Positions 1 through 58,505 of a stretch of DNA of 64,000 bases are shown here, piece after piece. The notes beneath the pieces were generated by a model that saw nothing but the letters and a program-made list of their open reading frames with translations, was not told where the DNA came from and ran no database searches. Source of the stretch: Phaeobacter sp. J2-8 (lineage in GTDB: Bacteria > Pseudomonadota > Alphaproteobacteria > Rhodobacterales > Rhodobacteraceae). The stretch lies in the NCBI RefSeq assembly GCF_022867865.1, contig NZ_JALIEC010000002.1, positions 1 through 64,000 on the forward strand, in the 5' to 3' direction. Positions within the stretch are counted from its first letter, which is position 1, and the number at the start of each line of letters is the position of its first letter. A program made the translations under genes and the position numbers.

Positions 1-650
1 GGGCGTGACCAGCGCCTCTGCGCCGCGTGGGGTCAATTGATAGACGCCGCGCGACACCCGTTCGAACCAGCCATAGTGATCGTCGGCCATGATCTGCGTT
101 GCTTTGGCCACGCCGGTGGTCTTGCGGATGTCGCCACATTTCGATGGCCCATGGCTGTTCAGATATTCCGCCAGCCGGATCGCATCCTGACGATAGGCGG
201 TGATCAGCGGCGAATTGCGCGCCGCGCCCCCAGATTTGGATCGCCCTCGCGCCGGGCAAATTCCCGCAGCAACCGGGTTTTGCGCGGCTTGTTCTGGCGC
301 GGTTGATAGGGCGCGGGTCGATATGCACCTCGGTATGATCATCGCTGAGCCGGACCGTGATCAACCCCAGTCCCAGCCGACGGCACAATGCCTTGTTTTC
401 CTTCAGGGCGCGTTGAAACCGTTTGCCGGTCAGACGCGGCACCGCGATATAGACCAAATCCGTAAGCGACTGGCGGGTGATCGCCTGATGAAACAGAAGT
501 CAGGGCAAATCCGGTTTTCAACTCGACAATCACCGGGTCGTCATCGCCTTTGATTGCGACGACATCTGCTGCGCCGATCTCGGCCTTGACCTCATAGCCC
601 TGTGCGACCAACAGCGCCTTCACGGCGGGATAGAGCGCGGTTTCCTTCAC
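1..650 (-). pseudogene. DUF2161 (PD-(D/E)XK-like) protein, partial and frameshifted
   Basis: The start is GTG (MKETALYPAVKALL) and the 3' end runs off the window. The N-terminal part has the nuclease-like core of DUF2161 proteins: GAADVVAIKG, then DPVIVELKTGF, i.e. a D...ExK pattern. Function is unknown; the fold suggests a nucleic-acid phosphodiesterase. The reading frame breaks three times: an extra base near 497, one base short in a G run near 317, and one base short in a C run near 229. When these are bridged the rest reads as continuous family-like protein (LFHQAITRQSLTDLVYIAVP, later IMADDHYGWFERVSRGVYQL). No in-frame stops occur inside the bridged segments, so the breaks may be sequencing errors. 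It starts 11 bases after the ybdK stop and is probably cotranscribed with it. Confidence 0.75.
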
Positions 651-661
651 CTGTCAGGCCC

Positions 662-1786: not shown

Positions 1787-1954
1787 GGCAGTCTCTTTCT
1801 TGTGGGTCGTGATGGTGTGGTTCGTGGTCTTGTGGTCCCGGGGGGCAATCAAAAAACCGGACGTCATGGATCATAGCGGCAAAAACGCGATTGCGGCAAT
1901 GCATCAACCCACAGCGTCCGGGAAATTTACCTGCGCAGAAATTGCAGCGCGGGG

Positions 1955-2281
1955 TTATTCCACCACAAGCGTGGCTTTCATCGCCGGATGGAATTTGCAG
2001 TGATAGTCGAACGCACCGGCGGTGGTCATCTCAAGCGATGCGGTTTCACCTTTGCGGAGGGTGCCGGTGCCAAATGCGCCGTTGTCGGCGGTGGCGGTAT
2101 GGGGGGCGCTGTCTTCGTTGGTGAACACCACCGTGTCACCGGCCGCCACGGTCAGGCTGGATGGCGAAAATGCGAACCCTTTGATGGAAACGTTATGTGT
2201 TGCGGCCTGGGCTGCGCCGGCCAAAGCCACGGGCACAGCTGCCAAACCCAAAAGGGCGGTACGTCTGGTAATCATATTCAT
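1955..2281 (-). CDS. Small periplasmic cupredoxin (plastocyanin/pseudoazurin-like)
   Basis: Encodes 108 residues. The N-terminus carries a twin-arginine-like signal (ITRRTALLGLA) with cleavage likely after AQA near residue 27, so the protein should be periplasmic. The single cupredoxin domain has the full type 1 copper set: His61 (APHTA), Cys95, His98 and Met101 (HCKFHPAM). The short spacing between Cys, His and Met resembles amicyanin/pseudoazurin-type proteins. It probably carries electrons, but no partner oxidase or dehydrogenase lies next to it. A GGAG ribosome-binding site lies 7 bases before the ATG. Confidence 0.9.
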   Translation of the reverse strand: MNMITRRTALLGLAAVPVALAGAAQAATHNVSIKGFAFSPSSLTVAAGDTVVFTNEDSAPHTATADNGAFGTGTLRKGETASLEMTTAGAFDYHCKFHPAMKATLVVE

Positions 2282-2419
2282 TTCAATGCTCCAATAAAGT
2301 GCCGGTCAACGATGCACTGGCATTGAAATCCGCGCAAGCGGCGTTGTGAATGCGGTTTGGGGGCAGGGTAACCCGGATCTGTTTCAGGCGCGTTTGGGGT
2401 TGGCCCACCCGCCGGGCGG

Positions 2420-2856
2420 CTAGCCCTGATTGGTGCCGGTGTCCCTGGTTTCAAAGACCTGTGGGTCACAGCCGGAAAATTCCACGGCACTTTCCCAGTC
2501 CCGGAAAACCCCGGCGGTCACGCCGGGAAAACGATCTATCAGCGATGAAAACATCCGGGCCATGCCATACGGCAGATCCTGCGGGGCCCAAAACGCCATC
2601 TTCATGTCGGTGCATTGTTCGTAAAACGCCGATCGCATCGAAATCGCCTGCATCATCTGGGCAAAGTTCAGGTCGATTTCCGCTAGCTGCGACAGGTCGC
2701 ACAGAATGTTCAAATCGGGCGTGTATTTCGGATTGCTATCAAATTCCTGACGCATCTTGTCGGACAGGCCAGATCGACCCGATTGAACAGCTCTATGGAC
2801 ACAACGCGCTCTTCTTCAAGTATCAAATAGCGAAACCCCACCGCGCTGCCCCCCAT
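2420..2856 (-). pseudogene. Conserved hypothetical protein with one frameshift
   Basis: No named domain is recognised. A reading frame starting at the ATG at 2856 (MGGSAVGFRYLILEEERVVS) runs to about 2766, where it joins the longer downstream frame (DKMRQEFDSNPKYTPDLNIL) if one base is added. Both parts look like one protein of about 144 residues, soluble and acidic, with motifs FYEQCTDMKMAFWAPQDLPY and FPGVTAGVFRDWESA. The overall form (a short strand-rich start, a middle segment with LNILCDLSQ, and a C-terminal helix) resembles small STAS/SpoIIAA-like regulatory proteins, but this is a guess. The break may be a sequencing error, as elsewhere in this window. Confidence 0.55.
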
Positions 2857-2988
2857 AAAAACCAAAAAATCGTTGATAGGTCAATTAACTTGATAAATCC
2901 CGTTTTCGGAAGCAAAAAACAACTCAGGGCCGCAGTTTACGCTGCGGCCCTGGATCACAATCTGGTGATGATCAACCTTGGGTTGGGA

Positions 2989-4488
2989 TTAATCCATGGC
3001 TTTGAAATTGAATTCGCCACCGTCCTTGATCCCCGAGAACCAGCGCGCGGTAACGGTTTTGGTCTTGGTATAGAAGCGGAAGGCATCAGGACCATATTGG
3101 TTCAAATCGCCAAAGGCCGATTTTTTCCAGCCACCAAAGGTGTGATAGGACAGCGGCACCGGAATGGGGAAGTTGATGCCAACCATACCCACATTCACCC
3201 GGTGGGCAAAGTCGCGTGCGGTATCACCATCGGCGGTATAGATTGCGGTGCCATTGCCGTAATCATTGTCAATGACAAGGTTCAGCGCGTCCTCATAGCT
3301 ATCGGCGCGCACCTGGGACAGAACCGGGCCAAAGATTTCTTCTTTGTAGATGTCCATATCCGGCGTCACATTGTCGAACAGCGACGGGCCACAGAAGAAG
3401 CCGTTTTCATATCCCTGAAGCTCGAAACCGCGACCGTCGATCACGAGGTTCGCACCCTGGTCCACGCCGCTGTTGATCAAACCTTCGATCCGCGCCTTGG
3501 ACTGGGCGGTGATCACAGGGCCATAATCCACGTCGTCGCCCGCAGTATAGGGGCCAACCTTCAGCTTTTCGACCCGGGGCACCAGCTTTTCGATCAGCGC
3601 ATCGGCGGTTTCCTTGCCCACGGGGACAGCAACCGAAATCGCCATGCAGCGTTCGCCGGCCGCACCATAGCCCGCACCAACCAATGCATCCGCAGCCTTG
3701 TCCAGATCGGCGTCCGGCATGATAATCATGTGGTTCTTGGCACCACCGAAACACTGGGCGCGTTTGCCATTGTTGGCGGCGCGGCCATAGATGTATTGGG
3801 CGATCGGTGTCGAGCCGACAAATCCAACAGCGGCGATTGTGTCGTTGTCGAGGATGGCATCGACAACCTCTTTGTCCCCGTTCACCACCTGCAACACGCC
3901 GTCGGGCAGACCGGCCTCTTTCAGCAGTTCCGCCAGCAGCAATGCGGTCGATGGCACGCGCTCGGACGGTTTCAGGATCATCGCATTGCCGCAGGCCAGC
4001 GCCGGCGCCATTTTCCACAGCGGGATCATCGCGGGAAAGTTGAACGGCGTAATACCGGCCACAACACCCAGCGGCTGACGCATGGAGTAAAGGTCAATGC
4101 CCGGACCGCCATTGTCGGTGAATTCACCTTTCAGCATGTTGGGCGCGCCCATGCAGACCTCGACAACCTCAAGCCCGCGTTGCACGTCGCCCTTGGCGTC
4201 GGGCAGGGTCTTGCCATGTTCACGGCTGACCAGTTCGGCCAGTTTGTCCATGTTTTCATTGATCAAGGCGCCGAACTTCATCATCACCCGCGCGCGACGC
4301 TGGGGGTTGGTGGCGCCCCATGCCTTTTGCGCTTCGGCCGCTTTGGCCACCGCATCGTCCAGTTCCGCTTTGCTCGACAGTTTGACCTGCGCCTGCACCT
4401 CGCCGGTGGCGGGGTTCATCACATCGGCGGTCCGTGTCGATGTGCTTTCGACAAAACTGCCGTTGATATAGTTCTTGATAACGTCCAT
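2989..4488 (-). CDS. mmsA: Methylmalonate-semialdehyde dehydrogenase (CoA-acylating)
   Basis: Encodes 499 residues, the usual length for MmsA. It oxidises methylmalonate or malonate semialdehyde to propionyl-CoA or acetyl-CoA in valine, inositol and beta-alanine breakdown. Visible features are ITPFNFPAMIPLWK near residue 146, the NAD-binding GSTPIA at 225, and the active-site Cys281 in GAAGERCMA. The ATG at 4488 is preceded by a GAGGAG ribosome-binding site; the longer upstream frame is not coding. It is transcribed away from a LysR gene about 100 bases upstream, which is a likely regulator. Lack of the aldehyde dehydrogenase general-base Glu is typical of this CoA-dependent subfamily. Confidence 0.95.
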   Translation of the reverse strand: MDVIKNYINGSFVESTSTRTADVMNPATGEVQAQVKLSSKAELDDAVAKAAEAQKAWGATNPQRRARVMMKFGALINENMDKLAELVSREHGKTLPDAKGDVQRGLEVVEVCMGAPNMLKGEFTDNGGPGIDLYSMRQPLGVVAGITPFNFPAMIPLWKMAPALACGNAMILKPSERVPSTALLLAELLKEAGLPDGVLQVVNGDKEVVDAILDNDTIAAVGFVGSTPIAQYIYGRAANNGKRAQCFGGAKNHMIIMPDADLDKAADALVGAGYGAAGERCMAISVAVPVGKETADALIEKLVPRVEKLKVGPYTAGDDVDYGPVITAQSKARIEGLINSGVDQGANLVIDGRGFELQGYENGFFCGPSLFDNVTPDMDIYKEEIFGPVLSQVRADSYEDALNLVIDNDYGNGTAIYTADGDTARDFAHRVNVGMVGINFPIPVPLSYHTFGGWKKSAFGDLNQYGPDAFRFYTKTKTVTARWFSGIKDGGEFNFKAMD

Positions 4489-45570: not shown

Positions 45571-46302
45571 TCAATGTTTCGGCGGCTTGGTGGGATCCTG
45601 GCCGTTGGGATAGACCAGACCGGCGGAAATCACCAATTTGGCCGCCTGTTCCACCGTCATATCCAATTCGATCACGTCTTCCTCTGGGAAAAACAACAAA
45701 AACCCAGAGGTGGGGTTCGGTGTGGTGGGGACAAAGACCGACATCAATTTGCCGGATGTTTCCGCCCGCACCGCTATTTCGCCCTTGGCGGTGGTCGACA
45801 CAAAGCCGATCGCCCAGACGCCTTTGCGCGGATATTGGATCAGACAGGCCTTTTCGAACGAACGGTCTTCTTGGTTGAATACCGTTTCGGCGATCTGTTT
45901 CACGCCGGAATAGATCGAGCGTACCACCGGCACGCGGTCGACCAAACTCTCGGCGAAACGGACCATGGACCGGCCGATCAACCCCTTGGCAATCCAACCG
46001 ACCAACAGGGTGAACAGCAAGAAGACAATGACGCCGACGCCGCGCACGTTCACCCGGATCCAATTCGGATCGGTCGGGCCCTCATTTCCCAGGAATCGGT
46101 TCAGAAGCTGCTCTGGCTGATAGGAATTCGGCACAAACGGCCACACCACGCCATCAACCCAGCCGATCACCGTCCAGATCAACCAAACGGTCAGCCCGAC
46201 CGGCGCAATCACCACAATCCCGGTCAGGAAAGAGGCGCGCAGGCTGGCAACCCATCCGGTGCGTGGCCGAGGGGCCGGGTCTTCGTCAAAGGGTGTGGTC
46301 AT
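45571..46302 (-). CDS. DUF502 membrane protein
   Basis: Encodes 243 residues. The N-terminus has a transmembrane helix (FLTGIVVIAPVGLTVWLIWT), and a second follows (GVGVIVFLLFTLLVGWIAKG), then a soluble beta-rich domain with IPYPRKGVWAIGFVSTTAKGE-like DUF502 sequence. Function unknown; plant homologues are called LIKE COV. Confidence 0.88.
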   Translation of the reverse strand: MTTPFDEDPAPRPRTGWVASLRASFLTGIVVIAPVGLTVWLIWTVIGWVDGVVWPFVPNSYQPEQLLNRFLGNEGPTDPNWIRVNVRGVGVIVFLLFTLLVGWIAKGLIGRSMVRFAESLVDRVPVVRSIYSGVKQIAETVFNQEDRSFEKACLIQYPRKGVWAIGFVSTTAKGEIAVRAETSGKLMSVFVPTTPNPTSGFLLFFPEEDVIELDMTVEQAAKLVISAGLVYPNGQDPTKPPKH

Positions 46303-46420
46303 CGCGGCGTCAATTCCCTGGGCGGCGCAGGCCTTTGTGGCTGGGTCCGACCGCTAAGCTAGGTAGTTCCATGGCCAACCTCAATGGGTTGGCATGGCTT
46401 TCATACGAGCAACCCGTGAA

Positions 46421-47335
46421 TTAGCTCTGTTGGCTGCTTAGTTCGCAGGCGATTTCGGCGGCAAGGCGGGCATTGTTGCGCACAAGCGCGATATTTGCGG
46501 TCAGCGACCGGCCATCGCTCAGCTCGAAAATCCGTTGCAGCAGATAGGGCGTGACATCCTTGCCCGCGATGCCATGTGTTTCGGCGTCTTGCAGGGCACG
46601 CTGGATGAAGGGATCAATCTCGCTGCGCGGGATCTCTGCCTCTGCGGGAATCGGATTGGCGACCAATTGCCCGCCCGTCAGCCCCAGCGCCCGCCGCATA
46701 AGATGTGCGCGTGCAATGGTGGCGGCATCCTCCATCCGCAAGGGGGCGCGATAGGCCGAGGTCGCCGACCAGAACGCCGGAAAGGCATCCTGACCATAGG
46801 CAATGACCGGCACGCCCAGGGTTTCCAGCACTTCCAGCGTTTTGGACAGATCTAGGATCGCCTTGGCGCCGGCGGCCACAACGGTGACCGGGGTGCGCGA
46901 CATTTCCTGCAGGTCGGCAGAGATGTCGAAGCTTTGCTCTGCGCCACGGTGGACACCGCCGATGCCGCCGGTGGCAAAGACATCGATGCCGGCCAAAGCC
47001 GCGCCGATCATTGTCGCCGCCACCGTCGTGGCGCCGGTGCCGCCGGTCGCCAGACAGGCCGCCATATCGGCGCGCGACAGTTTTGCCGCGCCTTTGGTCT
47101 GGGCCAGGGCGGTCAATTGCGCATCATCAAGACCAATGCACAGCGTGCCGTCCATCACGGCGATGGTTGCAGGCACCGCACCGTTGTCGCGGATCACATC
47201 CTCGACCCCGCGCGCCATCTCGAGGTTTTGCGGAAACGGCATGCCGTGGGTGATGATCGTGCTTTCCAACGCGACCAGGGGTTTGCCAATCTCGCGGGCC
47301 TCGGCCACTTCGGGGGAATAGCGGATGTCAATCAT
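46421..47335 (-). CDS. psuG: Pseudouridine-5'-phosphate glycosidase
   Basis: Encodes 304 residues. It splits pseudouridine 5'-phosphate into uracil and ribose 5-phosphate. The family pattern is clear: VALESTIITHGMPFPQNLEM, TIAVMDGTLCIGL, ATGGIGGVHRG, and FATGGIGG. It overlaps the PfkB-type kinase upstream by 8 bases, which makes a two-step pseudouridine breakdown pathway. Confidence 0.93.
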   Translation of the reverse strand: MIDIRYSPEVAEAREIGKPLVALESTIITHGMPFPQNLEMARGVEDVIRDNGAVPATIAVMDGTLCIGLDDAQLTALAQTKGAAKLSRADMAACLATGGTGATTVAATMIGAALAGIDVFATGGIGGVHRGAEQSFDISADLQEMSRTPVTVVAAGAKAILDLSKTLEVLETLGVPVIAYGQDAFPAFWSATSAYRAPLRMEDAATIARAHLMRRALGLTGGQLVANPIPAEAEIPRSEIDPFIQRALQDAETHGIAGKDVTPYLLQRIFELSDGRSLTANIALVRNNARLAAEIACELSSQQS

Positions 47336-48215
47336 GTGGGGTCTCTCCGGATACATAACGGGCAGCAGCGGTCAGCGCCCGGTCAAGCGCGTCGGCGCGG
47401 GGCAGGCCGCTGGCCTCGGCCGCCATATGGGCGGCCATGAAAGTGTCGCCCGCACCGGTGACACGGGTCACCAGAACCTGCGGGGGGCGATGGGTGAATG
47501 CGCCCTGTGCATCAATGTCGGCGCAGGGGCCACCGCCATCGGTGACCAAGGCACGTTTCGCGCCACGCGCCACCAGACCGGCGGCGGCGGATTCCGCATC
47601 GCCAAATTCGGTCTGGCACAGGATGCCGGCCTCTTCGCGATTGACGTACAGCACAGCACCGGGGCGGGTGACAAAGGGCATCAGCCGCTCGGCCTTGCCC
47701 GGGGACGCCGGTGCCACCCGCAGATCTGCTGCGGCAAAGACCGGGTCGCGGGAAATCTTGCCCAACAGGTGCTCTGTCAAATTGCCATCCAGCGCGATCA
47801 AACCGGAATAGGGCGCCGCGGCGCTGCCAAGACGGCCATCAACCAGCGGGCGCAGGATCTTGTCATCTGCGGCCTCAAGCGAATGGGCATCCGCAATCGC
47901 GGCAATCAGCCCGTTCGCGCCTTCGACGGCCATATAACGGTCGGTCGGCAAATCATCAGAGCGATAGATCCATTGGCAATCCAATCCCAAATCGCCACAT
48001 TCCGCGATCAACACGTCGCCCAGGACATCCCGGCCCACGGCGCTCAGCAACGCGGGGCGCATTCCGAAACGCGCCAGCGTCATTGCAATGTTCAGCGCAA
48101 CACCGCCGGGGATCTGACTGATCCGGCCGGGCACATCCGATCCAACACGCATGACCGAGGCAGACCGCCCGATCACATCCCAAAGCACAGAGCCAATACA
48201 AAGAACGTTCACCAT
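47328..48215 (-). CDS. psuK: Pseudouridine kinase (PfkB family)
   Basis: Encodes 295 residues. The PfkB signature 1 is PGGVALNIAMTLARFG and signature 2, with the catalytic Asp, is VTRVTGAGDTFMAAHMAAE. It phosphorylates pseudouridine for the overlapping glycosidase. Substrate is assigned from this neighbour. The ATG at 48215 is the family start. Confidence 0.88.
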   Translation of the reverse strand: MVNVLCIGSVLWDVIGRSASVMRVGSDVPGRISQIPGGVALNIAMTLARFGMRPALLSAVGRDVLGDVLIAECGDLGLDCQWIYRSDDLPTDRYMAVEGANGLIAAIADAHSLEAADDKILRPLVDGRLGSAAAPYSGLIALDGNLTEHLLGKISRDPVFAAADLRVAPASPGKAERLMPFVTRPGAVLYVNREEAGILCQTEFGDAESAAAGLVARGAKRALVTDGGGPCADIDAQGAFTHRPPQVLVTRVTGAGDTFMAAHMAAEASGLPRADALDRALTAAARYVSGETPHD

Positions 48216-48323
48216 GCGGCCCTTTTGGCGTGAAACTTTTTTGCCTGCAAGCCGTAGCTTGTAGTTGTAACCGAGGCGTATCATGGCAAGCTGCGCCCAC
48301 ATCCAACGCGAGGGAGACGCGGA

Positions 48324-49439
48324 ATGATCCGTCTAATGGCAACAGTAATGACGTTTATGGCTGGGCTGGTCGCCGGGGCGACCCAGGCACATGAGGTCAT
48401 GCCCACCATTGCCGACCTGAGCATATCAGATGGGGCGGCAGTGTTGGAATTGCGCCTGAATGCCGAGGCATTTGCCGCCGGTGTCGATCTGGACGGGCTG
48501 GAGGATACGGATACCACCGATCGTTCTGCGGCATATGATGCGTTGCGCGCATTGCCGCCCGAAGAAATGGCCACACGCATGGCACCGGTCGCTGCGCGTA
48601 TCGCGCGCGAAATTCAGCTGTTGAATGGCGATGCATCTGTGGTCTTGACGGTAGAGGATCTGGCAATCGGGGAATTGGGCAATGTGGACTTTGCCCGCGA
48701 AAGCAGCCTGACATTGCGCGGCGCGCTGGACGCGCCTCAGGCGGCACTTGTTCTGAATTGGCCAGAGGGCTATGGCACGCTGGTCTTGCGTCAAATCGGA
48801 CCGGAAGATCCCTATACCGGCATTATCGAAGGTGGCGGCACAAGCGGTGCGATCCATCCCGCCGGGGGCGATGCCAAATCGGGATTTGGGGTTTTTGCCG
48901 AATATATTCCGGTGGGTTTCGATCATATCCTGCCAAAAGGGCTGGATCATATCCTGTTTGTTCTGGGGCTGTTTTTCCTGACAACCCAGCTTGGCCCATT
49001 GTTGTGGCAGATCACGGCCTTTACCGCCGCTCATACGGTAACTTTGGCGCTGGGGGCGCTGGGGATTGTGTCGGTGCCGGGCTATATCGTCGAACCGATT
49101 ATCGCCGCATCCATCGTTTATGTCGCTGTCGAGAATATACTTTCCCCGAAAATGCACGCCTGGCGTCCGGTGGTCGTCTTCTGTTTCGGGCTTTTGCATG
49201 GTCTGGGGTTTGCCAGCGTTCTGGGCGAATTCGGATTGCCCGAGGGGCAGTTCATTCCGGCGCTGCTGGGCTTTAATGTCGGGGTCGAACTGGGCCAGTT
49301 GACGGTGATTGCGCTGGCCTTCCTGGCGGTGGGGCTGTGGTTCGGGCGCAAGTCGTTCTATCGGCCCTATATTGCGGTCCCGGCCTCTGTCGTGATCGCC
49401 ATGGTCGGGGCATATTGGTGTGTTGAGCGGGTGATCTGA
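48324..49439 (+). CDS. HupE/UreJ-type membrane protein
   Basis: Encodes 371 residues. A signal peptide (MATVMTFMAGLVAGATQAHE) precedes a periplasmic domain of about 170 residues; the C-terminal half has the HupE/UreJ pattern (GFDHILPKGLDHILFVLGLF, AHTVTLALGAL, LHGLGFASVLGEFG) with six helices. Relatives act in nickel or cobalt supply, but no hydrogenase or urease is near, so metal and role are open. Confidence 0.85.
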   Translation: MIRLMATVMTFMAGLVAGATQAHEVMPTIADLSISDGAAVLELRLNAEAFAAGVDLDGLEDTDTTDRSAAYDALRALPPEEMATRMAPVAARIAREIQLLNGDASVVLTVEDLAIGELGNVDFARESSLTLRGALDAPQAALVLNWPEGYGTLVLRQIGPEDPYTGIIEGGGTSGAIHPAGGDAKSGFGVFAEYIPVGFDHILPKGLDHILFVLGLFFLTTQLGPLLWQITAFTAAHTVTLALGALGIVSVPGYIVEPIIAASIVYVAVENILSPKMHAWRPVVVFCFGLLHGLGFASVLGEFGLPEGQFIPALLGFNVGVELGQLTVIALAFLAVGLWFGRKSFYRPYIAVPASVVIAMVGAYWCVERVI

Positions 49440-49477
49440 GCCTGTCAGACCCCCAGCACAATGGAATTGGCCGCCCC

Positions 49478-50260
49478 TCAGGCGGCCAGTTCAACCCAGA
49501 CCGGAACGTGGTCCGATGGTTTTTCCCGACCGCGAATGGCGCTGTCGATCTGGCAATCGACCAGCATATCGGCGCAATCCGGTGTCAGCAGGAAATGGTC
49601 AATGCGAATGCCGTTATTGCGCTGCCAGGCACCGGCCTGATAGTCCCAGAACGAATAATGCTCGGGCTGGCTATTGCGGGCACGGAACGCTTCTGTGAAT
49701 CCCAAATTGACGATCCGACGGAAAGCCGCGCGGCTTTCAGGTCGAAAAAGCGCATCCTCTGTCCATTGCTGGGGGCTGGCTGCATCTTCTGATTGCGGAA
49801 TGATGTTGAAGTCACCCGTAATAAGTGCGGGCATTTCAGTGCACATCAGCTGCCCTGCACGATGGTGCAGGCGTTCCATCCAGGCCAGTTTATAGTCGTA
49901 TTTCGGACCCGGCACCGGGTTGCCATTCGGAAGATACAGCCCGCATAGCCGAATGGCCTGGCTGTCGCCCATAACGGTGGCCTCGATCCAGCGGGCCTGT
50001 TCGTCACTGTCGTCGCCGGGCAGGCCGCGAGTGACGTCTTCCAGTGGTAAACGCGATAGAATCGCGACGCCGTTGAAACTTTTTTGCCCATGGGTTTCAA
50101 CGATATACCCCATATCCTCAAAGTGTTCGCGCGGAAATGCATCATCAATTGATTTGATTTCCTGTAGAATGGCCACATCCGGCGCGGCTTCTTTCAGCCA
50201 ATCGGTCAAGGCGCCAATGCGCGCTTTAATGCCATTAATGTTGAATGTCGCAATCTTCAT
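49478..50260 (-). CDS. xth: Exodeoxyribonuclease III
   Basis: Encodes 260 residues. AP-endonuclease fold with MKIATFNINGIKARIGALTD, LQEIKS (metal-binding Glu), ALITGDFNI and the C-terminal SDHVPVWVEL. It removes 3' damage and cuts abasic sites in DNA repair. The ATG is preceded by GAGGACGC. Confidence 0.93.
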   Translation of the reverse strand: MKIATFNINGIKARIGALTDWLKEAAPDVAILQEIKSIDDAFPREHFEDMGYIVETHGQKSFNGVAILSRLPLEDVTRGLPGDDSDEQARWIEATVMGDSQAIRLCGLYLPNGNPVPGPKYDYKLAWMERLHHRAGQLMCTEMPALITGDFNIIPQSEDAASPQQWTEDALFRPESRAAFRRIVNLGFTEAFRARNSQPEHYSFWDYQAGAWQRNNGIRIDHFLLTPDCADMLVDCQIDSAIRGREKPSDHVPVWVELAA

Positions 50261-50452
50261 AGCGTCCTCCATTGGCACCGACGTAGCCTTAGGAATGGGG
50301 CGGGGACAAGCGAAAATATTTACCAAACGATTGGTCGATTCGGGCCGGTTTCTGGATTCAACCCGCTTTTTTCGGGGATTGAATGCCGCGCAATATATTT
50401 GTGCGAAGTATGTTTTCGTTTTTATTCACAGGTAACTGCATACCATATCTTG

Positions 50453-50475
50453 TGTGGATAACTGACTTATCCACA
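50453..50475. promoter_or_regulatory. Inverted pair of perfect DnaA-box sequences
   Basis: TGTGGATAA, five bases, TTATCCACA: two exact consensus DnaA boxes facing each other, forming a 23-bp palindrome. A third box-like TTATTCACA (one mismatch) is at 50422-50430. AT-rich sequence follows (50477-50500). The site is about 90 bases before the small peptide gene. It could be a DnaA-dependent control or titration site, or a palindromic operator of another factor that resembles the DnaA box. Confidence 0.6.
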
Positions 50476-50560
50476 AGCTATAGTTGAAATTAATATTGAA
50501 ATGCCCGGTTAAGAGGAGAATTCTGATTGCGGTACTGATGCCGATAACCAGGAGAAAATC

Positions 50561-50734
50561 ATGCTGGCACTTGTTCAAGAAACAGTTAACGAAACCCAAA
50601 CCGAAGAGCTGGTCATCGAGACCACAGAGATCGCAACAGGCGATCACGTCGACACAATGATGTGCTGCTCGGTTGACGATGGCACCGACATGTTTGGCGG
50701 TGACCAGGTCCAAGCGATGATGTGCTGCTCGTAA
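50561..50734 (+). CDS. Cys-rich double-repeat peptide, candidate modified-peptide precursor
   Basis: Encodes 57 residues; a perfectly placed AGGAG ribosome-binding site is 7 bases before the ATG. Residues 1-28 are acidic, with about seven Glu (VQETVNETQTEELVIETTE), like a leader. The C-terminal part holds two repeats, GDHVDTMMCCS and GDQVQAMMCCS, separated by VDDGTDMFG; the second ends the protein. All four Cys lie in the two CCS motifs. No signal peptide or transmembrane segment. The pattern (acidic leader, repeated Cys-rich core at the C-terminus) is that of a RiPP precursor. I do not recognise the family. Confidence 0.75.
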   Translation: MLALVQETVNETQTEELVIETTEIATGDHVDTMMCCSVDDGTDMFGGDQVQAMMCCS

Positions 50735-50794
50735 GAGCGCCATCGTCCTAACGCCCGGGCCGGGCGCATTTCAGACATTCCGGAGGACCAAGTG

Positions 50795-51889
50795 ATGTCG
50801 AACGTTGTCTATTTGAATGTGCCCGGCCCCAAGGAACGCGGAGCGGCGCGCACTGGCGCGCTGGTCCGCGCCTTTGCCCGCCACCGGCGTGGCCCCGAAG
50901 ATGTGTTCTGGCTGAAGGAAAACGCCGAACTTCTGAACATCCTCGAAAATACCGGCCAGGACCTGCCCGAAATGTGGATGGAACCCTATGCGGCGTTCTA
51001 TGCAAACGCGGGCGAGAAATTGGCCTTTTTCCCACAATATTACCGGTTCATTCTGTCCCTGACGCTCGACCTCGAGGCGTTGGGAATGGCGGGTGATCAG
51101 GCCAAATCGCTTTGTGCCTGGGCTGTTCGCCAGGATCTTGCGGGGTATGAAACCTCGGATATTCAGCGTCTGGAGGCATTTCGCCTGATGCAGCGACGCG
51201 GATTTGATCCATTACAGGACAAAGGTGCCGCAGAAGCGCGTCTACGTGACTTTATTTCGCGTCCAGAACGCTTTGCATTGCCCAATAAGAAGGCTGCTTT
51301 TGAGCTGACGCATATCGTATTCTACCTGTCAGAATACGGTCGGAAATCGCCAGAGCTCGGCCAGAACGAATTGCGCGCATTGGAAAATGCAGGAATTTTG
51401 GCGTTTTTGGACGGAAACCTTGATCTTCTTGCTGAGGTTTGTGTCGCAATGCGCTATGCAGGGCACAACCCTTCCGGTATCTGGGAAGATTGGGTCGCGC
51501 AAAAGATGAACGAGATCGAGGTGACAGACATGGGTGAGGGCACCCCCCAACAGATCCCGATGGCCGATTGCTATCACGAGTTTCTGACGTCTTCCTGGCT
51601 GGCCGGGACGCGCGACGAAACGCTGTTTGCGCAGGTTCCGCCGCATGGCAAAACCGCCAGCCTTGGCTTTCAGCGTCCGAATGCCCGGCGCGGCGCGTTG
51701 CGGGAAATCTCGGTTCAACTTTACCGGATGGGGGACGAGCGGCGCGACGTTTGGGGCGCGATGCGCAACCGGATAGATGCCGCCCTTACCGATCCGGCCC
51801 GCCATCGCCTGGCACAGGCCGAAGCCTCGACCCGGCAATTTGATGCGTTTTTCGAAGATTTCGCCCGCGCCCGCAGGATCAGCGCATGA
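50795..51889 (+). CDS. Unknown helical protein beside the repeat peptide (putative maturation protein)
   Basis: Encodes 364 residues, predicted mostly helical and soluble. No catalytic domain is recognised. Distinct motifs: ELTHIVFYLSEYG (170-182), DLLAEVCVAMRYAG (210-223) and CYHEFLTSSWLAG (259-271). His173, Glu214, His261 and Glu262 could bind metal. The LTHxxFY motif recalls proteins of unknown function (DUF6895/DUF6902-type), from memory only. The ATG, with GGAGG 8 bases before, follows the peptide gene by 60 bases; it overlaps the transporter gene by 4. A role in modifying the peptide is inferred from position. Confidence 0.75.
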   Translation: MSNVVYLNVPGPKERGAARTGALVRAFARHRRGPEDVFWLKENAELLNILENTGQDLPEMWMEPYAAFYANAGEKLAFFPQYYRFILSLTLDLEALGMAGDQAKSLCAWAVRQDLAGYETSDIQRLEAFRLMQRRGFDPLQDKGAAEARLRDFISRPERFALPNKKAAFELTHIVFYLSEYGRKSPELGQNELRALENAGILAFLDGNLDLLAEVCVAMRYAGHNPSGIWEDWVAQKMNEIEVTDMGEGTPQQIPMADCYHEFLTSSWLAGTRDETLFAQVPPHGKTASLGFQRPNARRGALREISVQLYRMGDERRDVWGAMRNRIDAALTDPARHRLAQAEASTRQFDAFFEDFARARRISA

Positions 51890-52839
51890 ACCATGTCGCC
51901 TGGCGCATATCGCTACCGATGCTCAGCACCGTGCTGGTTGTGGCCTATACTTTGTTGATCACCTGTTCGGATGCGATCACAAAATACCTGGCGCAAAGCT
52001 ACAAGGCACCACAATTGCTGTGCATTGTTGCGCTTTTGATTGTGGTGATGTCGCTGGGAAGTGGCCGGATTCAGGGCAACAAGGGTAGCCTGCGCACCTC
52101 TTGTCCCGGGGCAATGGCCTGGCGGGCGGGGCTGACGGTTCTGGCGACGGTCATGTTCTTTAACGCACTGGCCACATTGGTATTTGCCGAGGTTTTTGTC
52201 TTCATCGCGCTGGTGCCTTTGTTGTCGGCGATGATGTCGGGTCCGATCCTGGGCGAACATGTGCGATTGTCGGCCTGGATTGCGCTTGGCCTCGGGTTTG
52301 TTGGCGTGTTGTTCATGGTGGACATCAGCCTGTCGGGGATCAGTAAGGGCCATATCTGTGCCTTTGTCGGATCGGTCTCCGGTACGGCGTCGATTGTTCT
52401 GGCGCGGTATATTGGCCGCCGCGAGGACAATTCGCTTGCACAGGTGTTCTATCCCCAAGCGGCGGTCTTTTTGTCGATGCTGATTTTGGCACCATTTGGC
52501 TGGCAGCCGATGTCGCTGTTTGATCTGGCTTTGTCGGCGGCCTGTGCGGTGGTGTTGTTTTCTGCGCGGCTGCTCTTGGTGATCGCATTACGGCATTTGG
52601 CGGCCTATGTGGTGACACCGTTGATGAACCTTCAGTTCGTCTGGATGGTGTTGATTGGTCTGGTCTTTTTCAACGAGGTCCCGGCGTTCAGCACGTTTGT
52701 CGGGGCGGTGGTTGTGATGGTTTCCGGCCTCTATCTGGCGCTGGACAAGGACAGCGGCGCACGGTCGCTTGGCGCCACAGCGCCAGATCGCACAGCCGAT
52801 GCACCGGACGCCCGCCTGCGGCTACGCACCCAAAGCTAG
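51886..52839 (+). CDS. EamA/DMT-family transporter
   Basis: Encodes 317 residues with about ten transmembrane helices in two EamA halves. It starts MNHVAWRISLPMLSTVLVVA and ends in a polar Asp/Arg tail. DMT transporters usually export small metabolites such as amino acids, dipeptides or cofactors. It overlaps the preceding unknown gene by 4 bases (ATGA), so it is co-expressed with it and may export the product of this locus. Confidence 0.87.
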   Translation: MNHVAWRISLPMLSTVLVVAYTLLITCSDAITKYLAQSYKAPQLLCIVALLIVVMSLGSGRIQGNKGSLRTSCPGAMAWRAGLTVLATVMFFNALATLVFAEVFVFIALVPLLSAMMSGPILGEHVRLSAWIALGLGFVGVLFMVDISLSGISKGHICAFVGSVSGTASIVLARYIGRREDNSLAQVFYPQAAVFLSMLILAPFGWQPMSLFDLALSAACAVVLFSARLLLVIALRHLAAYVVTPLMNLQFVWMVLIGLVFFNEVPAFSTFVGAVVVMVSGLYLALDKDSGARSLGATAPDRTADAPDARLRLRTQS

Positions 52840-52881
52840 TCCGTGCATTCCAGCCGGTAAGCCCGGCTGGAGAGATTTGAT

Positions 52882-53205
52882 TCAAATCGAAAACGACGTG
52901 CCGCAGCCGCAGGAGGCGGTGGCATTGGGGTTTTCGATCACGAACCGCGCCCCGATCAATTCTTCGCTGAAATCAATGACCGCCGAGGCCAAAAACGGCA
53001 GCGATACCGCGTCGACCACCACTTTTTCACCATTGCTTTCCAGCACCAGATCGTCGGTTTCGGCGCTGTCGAGACGAATATCGTACTGAAATCCCGAACA
53101 TCCGCCGCCCTCGACAGCCACGCGAAGCGCCTTGCCCGCAGCGGCGGCACCAATTTCCGACAACCGTTCAAACGCACGTTCGGTCACTTTCGGCGGCAAT
53201 TGCAT
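52882..53205 (-). CDS. erpA: A-type iron-sulfur cluster carrier (ErpA/IscA family)
   Basis: Encodes 107 residues. The three cluster-binding cysteines are in EGGGCSGFQYDI and TASCGCGTSFSI, as in HesB/IscA/ErpA. It hands [2Fe-2S] or [4Fe-4S] clusters to apoproteins. The start is MQLPPKVTERAFERLSEIGA. It is divergent to dgt, the usual order in this bacterial group. Confidence 0.93.
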   Translation of the reverse strand: MQLPPKVTERAFERLSEIGAAAAGKALRVAVEGGGCSGFQYDIRLDSAETDDLVLESNGEKVVVDAVSLPFLASAVIDFSEELIGARFVIENPNATASCGCGTSFSI

Positions 53206-53308
53206 CACATATCTCCGGTATTTAGGTGATTTCGCCAGCATTGGGCGGTTTTCACATGTCTCGGAGTACAATATAGAAACCCGGCACGCCATCAGCAAGG
53301 AGCCAGCG

Positions 53309-54457
53309 ATGCATGCCCCATATGCATCCCGTCCGGATCAATCGCGCGGGAGGCTTGTTTCAGAATTCGAAAGCCATTTTCGTTCGTGTTTTCAACGGGA
53401 TAGAGATCGAATTATTCATTCGAGCGCCTTTCGCAGATTGAAACACAAGACCCAGGTTTTTGTCGAACATGAGGGCGATTATTATCGCACCCGTCTGACC
53501 CATTCCATTGAGGTCGCTCAGGTGGCCCGCACCATTGCGGGCGCTTTGGGGCTTAACCAGGAGCTGACCGAGGCCGTGGCCCTGGCGCATGACCTTGGCC
53601 ATACGCCATTTGGCCATACCGGCGAGGATGTGCTGGATGAACTGATGGCGCCTTATGGTGGCTTTGATCACAATGCCCAGGCGCTGCGCATCGTCACCTC
53701 GCTTGAACTGCATTACGCCGAATTTGACGGGTTGAACCTGACCTGGGAAACCCTTGAAGCGATTGCAAAACATAATGGTCCGGTCTTGGGCGAACTGCCT
53801 TGGGCTTTGACGGAATACAACCGATTCCACGATCTGGAATTGCACACACACGCCAGCGCCGAAGCCCAGGTTGCGGCCATTTCCGATGACGTCGCTTATA
53901 ACAACCATGATCTGCATGACGGTCTGCGGGCCTGCCTGTTCAGCGAAGACGACATTTGCCATCTGCCGATTGTTGGACCGGCCTTTGCCGTGGTCGACCG
54001 CAAGTATCCGGGGCTGGAGAAAAATCGTAGACGCCACGAAGGGTTGCGCCGGGTTTTTGGTGTGATGGTCGAAGACGTGATAGACACATCGCGCCAGCTT
54101 TTGGACGAATGTGGCGCGACATCGGCCCAAGGGATCCGTGATTTGCCGACACCGGTTATCCGGTTTTCAGATGCGCTGTGGCAGGATTTGCAACTGATCC
54201 GCAGCTTTTTGTTTGAACGCATGTACCGCGCGCCGGACGTGATGAAAGTCCGCGAAGAGGTGGGCCAGGCGGTGCAGGATCTGTTTGCGATCTATATGAA
54301 GTCGCCGGAACATCTGCCATTGGCCTGGCAGGCGGCCCTGGCGGAAAACCCCGAAGATATGGTGCTGCGGGCGCGCTGCGTGTCGGATTACATCGCCGGC
54401 ATGACCGACCGCTTTGCCCTGCAATCGCAACGCCAAATGGGCGCGATCCGGGATTAA
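53309..54457 (+). CDS. dgt: Deoxyguanosinetriphosphate triphosphohydrolase-like protein
   Basis: Encodes 382 residues, the short Dgt-like type. The HD metal site is in RLTHSIEVAQVARTIA and ALAHDLGHTPFGHTGED (HD motif), with the further Asp in ISDDVAYNNHDLHDG. It hydrolyses dNTPs to nucleoside and tripolyphosphate. The ATG chosen has AAGGAG before it. Confidence 0.92.
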   Translation: MHAPYASRPDQSRGRLVSEFESHFRSCFQRDRDRIIHSSAFRRLKHKTQVFVEHEGDYYRTRLTHSIEVAQVARTIAGALGLNQELTEAVALAHDLGHTPFGHTGEDVLDELMAPYGGFDHNAQALRIVTSLELHYAEFDGLNLTWETLEAIAKHNGPVLGELPWALTEYNRFHDLELHTHASAEAQVAAISDDVAYNNHDLHDGLRACLFSEDDICHLPIVGPAFAVVDRKYPGLEKNRRRHEGLRRVFGVMVEDVIDTSRQLLDECGATSAQGIRDLPTPVIRFSDALWQDLQLIRSFLFERMYRAPDVMKVREEVGQAVQDLFAIYMKSPEHLPLAWQAALAENPEDMVLRARCVSDYIAGMTDRFALQSQRQMGAIRD

Positions 54458-54535
54458 CTTCGTCACAAAAGCGACGGTTGTTTTGTCTAGCAAATTGAAC
54501 GTAAATATTAGGTGATTATTTCTGTAGGTCATTTC

Positions 54536-55171
54536 GTGGTCAAATCTGCCCTTTTTCCCGGAAAGAATTGCCTCGTGATCGGGGCGGCGCACCCCATCGG
54601 GCGGGCGATGTGCCTGCGTCTGGTTGATCAGGGCGGATTTGTGATTGCCGTCGATTTTGACGAAGACGCGGTACAGGACCTGGCCAGCCTGCGGTCAGAC
54701 CGGATTGCGCCGCTGGCGATGTCATTGGCGGATTGTGACGGGCTGGATCATCTGGCCGCGCATTGGGCGGATGACCCGTTGCATGTCTTGGTGATGGCGC
54801 AGGCCTTGAATGGCGCGGCGGATCTTGGCGCGACGTTGACGTCGATTGAACACACAACCAAAAGCCTGGCCTCGGCGCTTGCGGCTTCGGATGGTGCGGC
54901 ATTGGTGCTGTTTGCCGTCCCGGACGAGGGCGGCAAGGCCAGTGGGCGCGCGGCGGCGGCGGCCCTGGCAACATTGACGGGCGATCTGGCGGCGACCGGT
55001 GTGCGGATCAATGCGCTGATGCTGCATTCCGCTGCCCTGCAAAGCGGGGCGTTCGATCAGATTTGCACCACGGCAATGATGATGGCCTTGCCCATGGCGC
55101 GTGCGGTCAGTGGCTCTGTGCTGCCGGTGGGGCGGCATGGCCTCAGGCTGAATGCATCGCCTGCGGAATGA
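54536..55171 (+). CDS. Degenerate short-chain dehydrogenase-like protein
   Basis: Encodes about 211 residues (start at GTG preceded by AGG; an earlier GTG at 54512 has no ribosome-binding site). The Rossmann start is NCLVIGAAHPIGRAMCLRLV, but the catalytic Tyr-x-x-x-Lys of active SDR enzymes is absent; that region reads SGRAAAAALATL. It ends in PVGRHGLRLNASPAE. It may be an inactive or non-catalytic member; the gene sits between dgt and argS. Confidence 0.7.
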   Translation: MVKSALFPGKNCLVIGAAHPIGRAMCLRLVDQGGFVIAVDFDEDAVQDLASLRSDRIAPLAMSLADCDGLDHLAAHWADDPLHVLVMAQALNGAADLGATLTSIEHTTKSLASALAASDGAALVLFAVPDEGGKASGRAAAAALATLTGDLAATGVRINALMLHSAALQSGAFDQICTTAMMMALPMARAVSGSVLPVGRHGLRLNASPAE

Positions 55172-55290
55172 CCGGCCCCGAATGCTTGTTCCCGAATGAC
55201 CGTTTCGGAATGACTGCTCCGGCGTGGCCAGCTTGGATTGACTGAGGCGCGCGGCGTGATACACCGCCATTCAGCACAAAGGACCAAAAA

Positions 55291-57036
55291 ATGAACCTGT
55301 TTTCCGACCTGCGCGGCTGCGTCATTGCCGCGCTTGAACAGATGCAATCCGAAGGCGCGCTGGCGCAGGATCTGGACTTCACCAATGTGACGGTGGAACC
55401 GCCGCGTGATCCGCTGCACGGCGATATGGCCACCAATGCCGCGATGGTACTGGCCAAACACGCCCGTCAGAAGCCGCGTGATATTGCCGAGGCCCTGGCC
55501 GAAAAGCTGCGCGCAGATGACCGGATTACAGCGGCGGATGTTGCGGGACCGGGTTTCTTGAACATGCGTTTGGCGCCTGCAATCTGGCAGGGCGTGGTTG
55601 CTGCGACCTTGGCCCAGGGCACGGCGTTTGGCCAGTCAAAAATGGGGCAGGGTCGGCGGATCAACGTGGAATACGTCAGCGCCAATCCCACGGGCCCGTT
55701 GCATGTCGGCCACACACGCGGCGCGGTTTTCGGTGATGCGCTGGCCAGTTTGCTGGCCTATTCCGGCCATGATGTGACCCGTGAATATTACATCAACGAT
55801 GGCGGTGCGCAGGTCGATGTGCTCGCCCGGTCAGTTTATTTGCGCTACCTGGAGGCCCATGGTCAGGAGGTCGCATTCGAGGACGGCACCTATCCCGGTG
55901 ACTATCTGATCCCGGTCGGCGAGGCGCTGAAGGAAAAGGTCGGCGACGACTACCTCGACAAGGGCGAGCAATACTGGCTCACCGATGTGCGTGAATTCGC
56001 CACCGAAAAGATGATGGATCTGATCCGCCATGACCTCGCGCTGTTGGGCGTCGAGATGGATGTGTTTTATTCAGAGAAGTCGCTCTACGGCACCGGCCGG
56101 ATCGAAGCCGCCATTCAGGAGCTGGACGACAAGGGCCTGATCTATGAGGGGGTGTTGGAGCCGCCAAAAGGCAAGAAGCCCGAAGATTGGGAACCGCGCG
56201 AACAGACCCTTTTCAAATCCACCGAACATGGCGATGATGTCGACCGTCCGGTCAAGAAATCCGATGGGGCATGGACCTATTTCGCGCCCGACATCGCATA
56301 TCATTATGATAAGGTTTCCAGAGGCTTCGACGGCCTGATTGATGTGTTTGGTGCGGATCACGGCGGCTATGTCAAACGGATGAAGGCGGCTGTGTCTGCG
56401 CTGTCCGATGGCAAGACGCCATTGGATATCAAGCTGACGCAGCTGGTCAAATTGTACAAAAACGGCCAGCCGTTCAAAATGTCCAAGCGGGCCGGAACCT
56501 TTGTCACGCTGGCCGATGTGGTCGAACAGGTTGGCCCCGATGTGACCCGGTTTGTGATGCTGACGCGCAAGAATGATGCGCCCTTGGATTTCGATTTTGA
56601 CAAGGTGCTGGAACAATCGCGCGAGAACCCGGTTTTCTATGTGCAATATGCCAACGCCCGGGTGCATTCGGTGCTGCGCAAGGCGCGGGATGCGGGGTTG
56701 GATGTGTCCGACGCGGCATTGCAGGGCGCGGATCTGGGCCGCAACGGGCATGAAGCCGAATTGGCCGTGGCCAAAAAACTGGCCGAATGGCCCCGGTTGA
56801 TCGAAATTGCCGCCCGCACGCATGAGCCGCATCGCGTGGCATTCTATCTCTATGAACTCGCTGGTGAATTCCACACATTGTGGAACCGGGGCAACGAAGT
56901 GCCGGAGCTGCGGTTTTTGCAGGATGGCGATGATGCCGCAAGTTTGGCAAAAATTGCACTGGCGCGGTCTGTGTCGGTTGTTATTTCCGCCGGTCTTGGT
57001 ATCTTGGGTGTGACCCCAGTGGAAGAGATGCGCTAA
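55291..57036 (+). CDS. argS: Arginyl-tRNA synthetase
   Basis: Encodes 581 residues. Class I signatures: [13 protein letters not shown] (HIGH) and the KMSK-like [13 protein letters not shown]; the N-terminal Add-1 domain and C-terminal DALR anticodon domain are both present. It charges tRNA-Arg. The ATG with an AAAGGAC ribosome-binding site matches the family start. Confidence 0.96.
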
Positions 57037-57113
57037 GACACTCTCTCTGCCGGGCATAGAGCAGACAAATGGCACACCCGGTGGCACGTATCACCGGGGG
57101 CAGAGAGGCGAAA

Positions 57114-58505
57114 ATGGCAGATGTTCAATGGTCCGGCACTCCTGTGGGGTACGGCAGAGACGACACATATCATTCATCCAATCCGCAATCTGCGGGACCA
57201 CAGGGGCAAACCCACCAGGCGCATTCTGGCCCGGAGCCGTTTGACCCGGGTCAATATGGCCAGGGTCAATATGGTCGGGGCCAATACGATCAGCACGCCC
57301 TGAATCAGGGACATTATGGCCAGGACCAATCAGAGACTGGTGAGCCGGGCGCGCCTCAGGCCGATCTGGCCCAGTCCGGCAAGGGCATGGGTGGCTATGT
57401 CAATGTGGCGGGCGCGGTTGTGTCGCTGGCGCTTCTGGTTGGGGTCGGTGTTTGGGGCTATCAGCTTCTGGTGCGTGATGTGACCGGTGTGCCGGTTGTG
57501 CGTGCCTCGGATGGACCATGGCGCGTTGCACCCGAAGATCCCGGCGGCAGCCGTGCCGATCATCAGGGGCTGGCCGTGAATGAAGTTGCCGGTCTTGGCA
57601 CGGCCTCTGGTCCGGTGGAACAGGTCGCGCTGGCGCCCAATTCCGTCGGGCTTCAGGACGAAGATGTGGCCAGCTTGAAACTCAATACGCTGTCGACCCG
57701 CGAGGGCGGCGCCGCAATGCCGACCATGGCCAGCAGCCGCGCGACCTTTGGTGCCTCGGACCAGGGTGTGACCCAGCGCAATTTTGTGCCGGGGTCGGTA
57801 ACTCCAAGTGCCGTGACAACGGGTGGCGTGACGCAAACCTCGGTGACACCGCGCGGGGTCACCCCGCGGAATGTGCCCGTGGCGGTCAATCCCCTGCCTG
57901 CGCCGACCAATACGGCGGGCGGCATCATGACCAACCGGGTGGACACCAGCGGCCAGCGGCAACCGATTTCCAATGCCACCATTCAGGCATTGGCGGATCA
58001 AATCGCAGCCGATGTAAAGCCCTTTGGCACCACGACGACGCCAACGACCCCCGCGCCGATGGTTGTGGCCTCGGTCAAGCCGATCGAAACCGCCGTTTCC
58101 ACAATCGACGGCCCCGGTGTGCGCCGGTCCTTGCGTCCGCGCACGCGCCCGTCGCAATTGGTGAAAACCTCGCTGGCCTCGCCGGTGGCGGCGGCCCCGA
58201 CTGCGCAAGCCGCAACAGCCACAACCGCCGAAATCAATGCCGCGACCCTTCCCGCAGGTACACGTTTGGTGCAATTGGGCGCCTATGACAGCGCCGCGAT
58301 TGCGCAATCGGAATGGGGCCGGATTTCCGGCCGCTTCAATAGCTTTTTCGATGGCAAAAGCCGCGTGATCCAACGGGCGGAAAGCGGCGGGCGCACCTTC
58401 TACCGGCTGCGTGCGCATGGGTTTGACGATCTGGCGGATGCCCGTCGCTTCTGTGCCGCACTGGTGGCGGAACGGACCGATTGTATTCCGGTCATCACCA
58501 AATGA
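57114..58505 (+). CDS. SPOR-domain cell-division/envelope protein
   Basis: Encodes 463 residues. The cytoplasmic N-terminus has Gly/Gln/Tyr repeats (GQYGQGQYGRGQYDQ, residues 46-60), followed by one transmembrane helix (about 96-119). A long Thr/Pro/Val-rich periplasmic linker contains the repeats SVTPSAVTTGGVTQTSVTPR-like. The C-terminal SPOR domain (about residues 385-460, ending RRFCAALVAERTDCIPVIT) binds septal denuded peptidoglycan. Its stop overlaps the nagZ start by 4 bases. Confidence 0.85.
   Translation: MADVQWSGTPVGYGRDDTYHSSNPQSAGPQGQTHQAHSGPEPFDPGQYGQGQYGRGQYDQHALNQGHYGQDQSETGEPGAPQADLAQSGKGMGGYVNVAGAVVSLALLVGVGVWGYQLLVRDVTGVPVVRASDGPWRVAPEDPGGSRADHQGLAVNEVAGLGTASGPVEQVALAPNSVGLQDEDVASLKLNTLSTREGGAAMPTMASSRATFGASDQGVTQRNFVPGSVTPSAVTTGGVTQTSVTPRGVTPRNVPVAVNPLPAPTNTAGGIMTNRVDTSGQRQPISNATIQALADQIAADVKPFGTTTTPTTPAPMVVASVKPIETAVSTIDGPGVRRSLRPRTRPSQLVKTSLASPVAAAPTAQAATATTAEINAATLPAGTRLVQLGAYDSAAIAQSEWGRISGRFNSFFDGKSRVIQRAESGGRTFYRLRAHGFDDLADARRFCAALVAERTDCIPVITK

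Follow-up and report, generated by a model that had tools for sequence, protein, structure and literature searches.

A putative multi-core peptide pathway around a DUF6902 protein in Phaeobacter sp. J2-8 and related Rhodobacteraceae

The locus and the proposed pathway

The first 64,000 nucleotides of contig NZ_JALIEC010000002.1 of Phaeobacter sp. J2-8 (assembly GCF_022867865.1; this whole stretch is called the window in the following) contain a compact three-gene locus, which encodes a 57-residue repeat peptide, a 364-residue protein of the family DUF6902 and an EamA-family transporter. As the best explanation of this locus we consider it probable that it is a compact pathway for a multi-core RiPP (ribosomally synthesized and post-translationally modified peptide), the enzyme of which most likely epimerizes core residues. 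The individual parts of this reading differ in strength: DUF6902 very probably acts on and modifies the repeat peptide, and on epimerization as the actual reaction our judgment is evenly divided. The basis is formed by the tandem repeats, the co-occurrence of peptide and enzyme, the codon-level constraint on the core and the family membership of the enzyme.

In the proposed pathway, the precursor would have a leader-like part at its N-terminus, followed by tandem units, and every unit would comprise a recognition stretch G-D/E-x-x-x-M/L/A, a five-residue core and a spacer that often starts with A-P or G-P. The core would take the form F/Y/M plus four residues, usually x-S/T/C-x-x. DUF6902, as a branch of the DUF6895 superfamily, would act on every core and, by acid-base catalysis, convert one or more of its residues to D-amino acids; the motifs THxxFYxx(D/E)(Y/F)G, DLxxE and YH would line the helical pocket in which this takes place. 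Cellular proteases would then free the cores, and the EamA transporter, where present, would export the product. The catalytic site, the core cleavage and the export are steps that we infer. As a speculation, the product could be a species-specific secreted signal or competitor, which is suggested by the near-identity of cores within arrays and their change between species.

The locus comprises the following features:
50550-50555, + strand: Shine-Dalgarno-like AGGAGA 5' of the precursor gene, read from the sequence
50561-50734, + strand: open reading frame (ORF) of the precursor peptide, 57 residues, an acidic leader-like half and two repeat units; relatives have 2-20 units in the same place
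50639-50671, + strand: repeat unit 1, GDHVDTMMCCS, with the core MMCCS at 50657-50671
50699-50731, + strand: repeat unit 2, GDQVQAMMCCS, with the core MMCCS at 50717-50731, which is the protein end
50782-50786, + strand: Shine-Dalgarno-like GGAGG 5' of the enzyme gene, read from the sequence
50795-51889, + strand: DUF6902 protein, 364 residues, putative core-modifying enzyme (Pfam PF21843 and PF21836; AlphaFold2 model)
51886-52839, + strand: EamA-family transporter, putative exporter, optional in relatives (Pfam PF00892, E 2.3e-12)

The three ORFs are codirectional and closely spaced. An earlier note, made from this DNA alone, had described the peptide, its partner and the transporter, and the dimensions it gave were all recovered: the 57-residue peptide is followed after a gap of 60 bases past its stop by the ATG of the 364-residue ORF at 50795 (a GTG lies one codon upstream), and the transporter ORF shares 4 bases with the end of the latter. 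The two 11-residue repeats that it had recognized share 8 of their 11 residues, a degree of identity that was not reached in any of 20000 peptide shuffles. It is also correct that all four cysteines lie inside the repeats, but the last of them, which had been placed at the C-terminus, is penultimate, as the protein ends in CCS and serine is the C-terminal residue. The peptide matched no family in Pfam and NCBIfam, and none of the PADLOC anti-phage defense models was matched by the three proteins.

Repeat precursors and their co-occurrence with DUF6902

Related loci were taken from two collections, namely 248 genomes of the same family, which yielded 68 loci, and a named collection, from which the best 80 of 360 matched stretches were kept, giving 148 partly overlapping loci in total. 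DUF6902 is present in 68 of the 248 family genomes, the genome of the window included. With the 57-residue peptide alone as query only the nearest relative was found convincingly, and the arrays were recognized by reading upstream of the DUF6902 genes, where the relatives possess ORFs of tandem units such as GEGTQMFSSGSAPTASADATT. At 145 of the 148 loci a script detected at least two units; as to the remaining three, L122 has two units by eye, in L208 the upstream sequence amounts to only 85 bases, and in L127 (genome G039) no unit is visible. A precursor carries 2-20 units of about 20 residues, with a unit spacing of 20 or 21 residues in 589 of 695 cases. Of the 121 distinct precursors that hold two or more units, 89 end with their last core. 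The cores found across the relatives include FSSGS, FTSGL, FTTSM, FTSWS and MMCCS. Among 862 units, which were picked by the core itself, the first core residue is Phe in 803 and the third is Ser, Thr or Cys in 843.

The peptide is a multi-core precursor, because the cores are near-uniform within one protein, the spacers are free and the main core changes between species. The part N-terminal of these 2-20 near-uniform cores presumably serves as leader, so that an encoded precursor with leader and core, as expected of a RiPP, would be present. Extra copies of eight residues around the core (VQMFTSGL, TALFTSGS, VELFSSCS) are found in L081, L086, L159, L168 and L076, and these may mark the minimal processed unit.

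The peptide and the enzyme gene are not only linked but also co-occur. A repeat profile built from two-unit segments was run against these 248 genomes and gave matches in 69 of them at E<=0.01, including 67 of the 68 with DUF6902 (weakest E 3.5e-5). Two matches (E 0.0012 and 0.005) fell among the 180 genomes without DUF6902, which is about the chance expectation at this cut-off, and at E<=1e-4 none of the 180 was matched. The positives are partly circular, as the segments come from DUF6902 loci, and it is the 180 negatives that provide a fair test. The association with the partner gene and the variable number of repeats, both of which the earlier note had named as support for a RiPP, were thus found (67 of 68 against 0 of 180 genomes; 2 to 20 units), and the outcome it had named as fatal, peptides that mostly occur without the partner, was searched for over the 248 genomes and not seen. 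The co-occurring gene probably encodes the modifying enzyme. The only enzyme genome without a profile match is G039, in the homologue of which (29% identity) the TH..FY and YH motifs are missing. At its locus, L127, this divergent homologue occupies the same site without a repeat peptide, and it looks like a decayed or repurposed copy.

Constraint on the core and switching between species

An initial repeat statistic was circular, as units had been picked by the core, and it was redone ignoring the last four core residues. Units were now selected by G at position -6, D/E/A/G/N/H/Q at -5 and F/Y/M at 0, a selection that fixes or restricts these three positions, and all unit pairs within a precursor were compared codon by codon (121 distinct precursors, 816 units). 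The nonsynonymous share of codon differences is 12, 10, 17 and 14% at positions +1 to +4, compared to 74-89% at the spacer positions -8, -7 and +7 to +12, with intermediate values of 39 and 26% at +5 and +6. Weighted per precursor, 12-20% are nonsynonymous in the core and 80-92% in the spacer. Synonymous differences occur at the core positions +1 to +4 in 40-52% of the unit pairs, and because the core codons differ so often in this way, the copies are not simply recent duplicates. Judged from these codons, selection holds the product near-identical within one precursor. In 19 of the 695 spacings the distance is 1, which reflects units double-counted one residue apart; this adds false core differences and works against the result.

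The last four core residues are the same in every counted unit of 85 of the 121 precursors. Of 11 precursors with at least two departing units, four are truly mixed, and the rest are mostly explained by off-by-one counts or single odd units. Between species the core switches frequently: there are 35 main core types among 119 enzymes, and at least 52 changes are required on the DUF6902 tree, with at least 22 each at the fourth and fifth core position and at least 14 at the third. The sister pair L073 and L151 illustrates that a whole array can differ, with FTSGS in 7 of 7 units of the former and FSSGS in 6 of 6 of the latter. The tree was built quickly (119 tips, 40 of 116 inner branches drawn open) and omits L102, L119, L127, duplicates and rows without a unit. 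In this tree the nearest rows to the window are L135 (Rhodobacteraceae bacterium M0601), L136 (Marinovum algicola) and L061 (the same-genus genome G099).

In view of these data the interpretation given in the earlier note stands in part, as the RiPP layout is strongly supported and three points have changed. Constraint acts on a core of about five residues, MMCCS here and FSSGS-like elsewhere, and not on the 11-residue repeat as such. The cysteines are not essential, since in the relatives Ser or Thr prevails at position three of the core. The new modification chemistry that had been envisaged may instead be an epimerization, as the superfamily of the enzyme has a reported lasso-peptide epimerase.

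The DUF6902 protein and the DUF6895 superfamily

Against Pfam, the 364-residue protein matches DUF6902 (PF21843) with E 4.8e-134 and, at residues 29-229, also DUF6895 (PF21836; E 1.5e-20, 74.2 bits against a cut-off of 23.8), which by homology over the conserved domain makes it a member of the DUF6895 superfamily. The protein had previously been called unknown; it is now classified, although neither name gives a function. The AlphaFold2 model (77 relatives) is confident and almost wholly helical, with a mean predicted local distance difference test (pLDDT) score of 93 and a predicted template modeling (pTM) score of 0.92. Alignments were made of 39 of 68 proteins, of 77 of 80 loci plus the window, and of 48 of 77 extracted segments; from the second, L147 and L160 were excluded as being without a start codon at the match and L189 for an internal stop or N. 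R31, E42, N43, E119, D122, R125, R149, H173, D210, E214, D258, Y260 and H261 are invariant in its 78 rows, and in the more diverse 39-row set H173, D210, E214, Y260 and H261 are kept at 90% or more. None of the nucleotide, S-adenosylmethionine (SAM), flavin or iron-sulfur (Fe-S) binding families in Pfam and NCBIfam was matched by DUF6902, a sequence search of solved structures gave nothing under E 2, and DUF6902 found no match in plasmid and phage collections. Among the non-significant Foldseek matches, drimenol synthase (template modeling score by query 0.41, E 0.22) and, much more weakly, complement C3b give a hint of an alpha/alpha toroid, a fold that is not claimed.

DUF6895 includes a reported lasso-peptide epimerase, going by the title of the paper on it that PMC13352647 cites. 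We inspected eight DUF6895 loci from other families and phyla, in the genomes G625, G696, G850 and G250 and on plasmids of Pseudalkalibacillus, two Streptomyces and Kitasatospora; sub-cut-off matches in G281, G300, G405, G598 and G608 lay outside this inspection. YH and D(L/V)..E are found in all eight proteins, TH in seven and SH in one, and seven have an arginine a little ahead of the position that corresponds to E127. H173, D210, E214, Y260 and H261 align with identical residues in every one of the eight, and these shared motif residues are the putative catalytic ones.

A short precursor-like ORF lies directly upstream at seven of the eight DUF6895 loci and is absent in Streptomyces fungicidicus. 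Most of the seven ORFs possess a leader around G(I/L)(I/V/L)(D/N), the core has W followed by F/Y/H and V/I/L, two of them hold two units, and none scored above cut-off in Pfam and NCBIfam. They apparently constitute a second precursor family that is distributed over Pseudomonadota, Bacillota and Actinomycetota. In L225, L226, L227, L131, L231, L232 and L234 the upstream ORFs show an SGLID... leader and are hypothetical where annotated. In L228 (genome G242) a genome of the same family, a DUF6895 match above cut-off (E 9e-10) comes without a DUF6902 match, and no clear gene was recognized. The two families have in common the motifs (T/S)H..F, D(L/V)..E and YH and the short ORF just upstream. 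They differ in their precursors, which in DUF6895 combine a long leader with one or two units and cores such as GPWFVLAG or DWTFVSPNYVYKG, whereas those of DUF6902 are arrays of five-residue cores. They differ also in the organisms: DUF6895 occurs in the three phyla named above, whereas the 80 kept DUF6902 records are assigned to Rhodobacteraceae, Rhodobacterales or related groups, two of them only to Alphaproteobacteria.

Alternative explanations

As alternative to epimerization, the same RiPP layout could serve another chemistry, in which DUF6902 would target the side chain of the Ser, Thr or Cys in the third place of the core, by dehydration, acylation, oxidation or cyclization. We regard this as a possibility to be taken seriously, though not as a probable one. 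It would be consistent with the prevalence of Ser, Thr or Cys at position three (843 of the 862 core-selected units) and of Phe at position one (803 of 862), and also with DUF6902 being a divergent branch, the precursors of which are unlike those of DUF6895. However, single species have Asn or Ala at position three (FTNWC, YIAGL), the searches gave no match to a family that binds nucleotides, SAM, flavin or Fe-S clusters, and epimerization is the only activity of the superfamily that we found reported. It has also to be considered that the system is not a RiPP and that DUF6902 is a binding protein or regulator, with the repeat protein serving it as multivalent ligand, decoy or scaffold and staying covalently unchanged. 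Helical proteins can bind short linear motifs, weak Foldseek matches with poor scores to peptide-binding helical repeats such as karyopherin alpha and ZYG11B point in this direction, and the lack of a linked protease and the optional exporter would be easily accommodated. We nevertheless think that this is quite improbable, as the dense invariant polar residues (E42, N43, E119, D122, R125, R149, H173, D210, E214, D258, H261) resemble an active site, an enzyme is reported in the sister family, and a bound motif is unlikely to change so often and yet stay near-uniform in arrays, although four arrays do combine two cores. The cysteine pair of the window cores MMCCS could finally suggest a metal-binding or structural repeat protein, but the close relatives have MMCAS, MMCVS and MMSCS and most of the listed main cores are free of cysteine, which largely refutes this idea and leaves it barely conceivable.

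Several points weigh against the multi-core pathway with an epimerizing enzyme as well. Its product, its modification and the activity of the locus are all putative, being deduced from sequence comparison. The precursor of the window is unusual, with two units only and Met replacing Phe. Some arrays are mixed, combining FSSGS with FSTSC (L087, L170 and L188, the last from Ruegeria pomeroyi) or FTSGS with FTTSA (L214), and these precursors were perhaps caught in the middle of a switch or make two products. The DUF6895 match spans about 200 of the 364 residues, and the two families appear to have unlike substrates; moreover, the accessible parts of the lasso section of PMC13352647 do not describe the DUF6895 epimerase. 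Foldseek gave no significant structural relative (best E 0.14). EamA is absent from 16 of the 68 family-genome loci, one of which is ended by its contig, and in the 15 other genomes no close EamA was found elsewhere among the matches listed (<=34% identity). No protease gene is linked to the locus. Export and processing are the weakest part of the proposed mechanism.

Comparison with known systems and implications

Epimerization is the sole modification of the epipeptides (YydF/EpeX of Bacillus subtilis), and in YydF, WYFVKSKENRWILGSGH, D-residues are present at one V and one I, as described in PMC7026026. By eye the YydF core WYFV..WIL resembles some of the DUF6895 cores, whereas the five-residue DUF6902 cores are unlike YydF; this resemblance is a lead only, which would by analogy favor epimerization for the superfamily. 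According to the same source the epipeptide epimerase is a radical SAM enzyme, in contrast to the window locus, where DUF6902 and the ten flanking proteins scanned (45574-58502) matched no radical SAM family and these ten include no radical SAM epimerase gene, which sets the locus apart from the epipeptides. Neither a lasso cyclase (Asn-synthetase-like) nor a leader peptidase was found among the same ten proteins, all of which fall into other families. MslH, a dedicated epimerase that acts on a lasso peptide, would be comparable to DUF6902 in being a peptide epimerase; the title of its paper, cited in PMC13352647, gives it as metal-dependent and of acid/base type, so that it is not of the radical SAM kind. 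Precursors with several cores are known from microviridins (PMC5934393) and from fungal Kex2-processed repeat precursors (PMC7329392). These share several cores per precursor with the present system and differ in processing, which involves a distributive peptide cyclase and the Kex2 protease, respectively. The present system has as many as 20 cores, each about five residues long, and no protease is linked to it. A literature search for DUF6902 gave no paper and one for DUF6895 a single paper. Literature searches for these families, for repeat-type RiPPs in Rhodobacteraceae or Roseobacter, for epimerases and for the core strings gave no description of the system among the matches listed, supplements and most subscription papers being outside the search.

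A much wider claim can be formulated, which in its entirety we hold to be rather unlikely: that these loci represent a new multi-core RiPP class of Rhodobacteraceae, with secreted D-residue products of about five residues, a helical epimerase that is not a radical SAM enzyme, and arrays that switch as species diverge. If it were true, the switching would be as expected of pheromones or self-recognition signals, and together with the DUF6895 precursors there would be one ancient peptide-epimerase superfamily across at least three phyla. If the pathway proposed for the locus is correct, many marine bacteria would make species-specific short modified peptides, given 360 matched stretches with a relative of the enzyme in one genome collection; the genera among the 80 kept records include Ruegeria, Shimia, Roseovarius, Marivita and Phaeobacter. 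The precursor of the locus is one without any matching Pfam or NCBIfam model. The precursors would provide natural substrate arrays, with up to 20 cores, for a peptide-modifying enzyme that matches no cofactor family, and the core switching a test case for a secreted signal that changes as its function is kept.

Genomic site, export and further observations

The locus is bordered by two genes that lie outside the system:
49478-50266, - strand: exonuclease III-like flanking gene, left border (PF03372)
52882-53208, - strand: Fe-S biosynthesis flanking gene, right border (PF01521)

We take the former to be xthA and the latter to be erpA/hesB-like. Where at least 1.7 kb of upstream sequence is available (64 loci), the exonuclease III gene is found on the same side in 63; an erpA-like gene lies within 5 kb downstream in 58 of 68. 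Twenty DUF6902-free genomes (L265-L284), taken from among the better scores in the erpA list, were examined as well, and 16 of them have both genes in the same order, with gaps of 36-145 bases in six and of 505-3317 in ten. The larger gaps contain no DUF6902 and only unrelated-looking ORFs, so the site is variable. These findings are compatible with an old chromosomal cassette that was lost repeatedly, or with one that is exchanged at a single site by recombination.

EamA is linked at 52 of the 68 loci, and at 11 of the 15 EamA-free loci erpA directly follows the enzyme gene. Because EamA is often absent, the constant part is the peptide and the enzyme, and other genes must often provide for export and proteolysis. 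A conserved attenuator hairpin in the gap that separates the precursor from the enzyme gene is no general feature, with z<-2 in 12 of 62 cases, a mean z of -0.78 and +0.49 in the window. Long hairpins in this gap are seen in L097, L110, L112 and L121, two of them with a T run, and are absent from the window; in those four loci they possibly set an excess of precursor. Further upstream in the window, at 46421-48302 on the - strand, an Indigoidine_A-like and a pfkB-family gene are adjacent, which we assume to be an ordinary pseudouridine-breakdown pair, the former presumably being PsuG.

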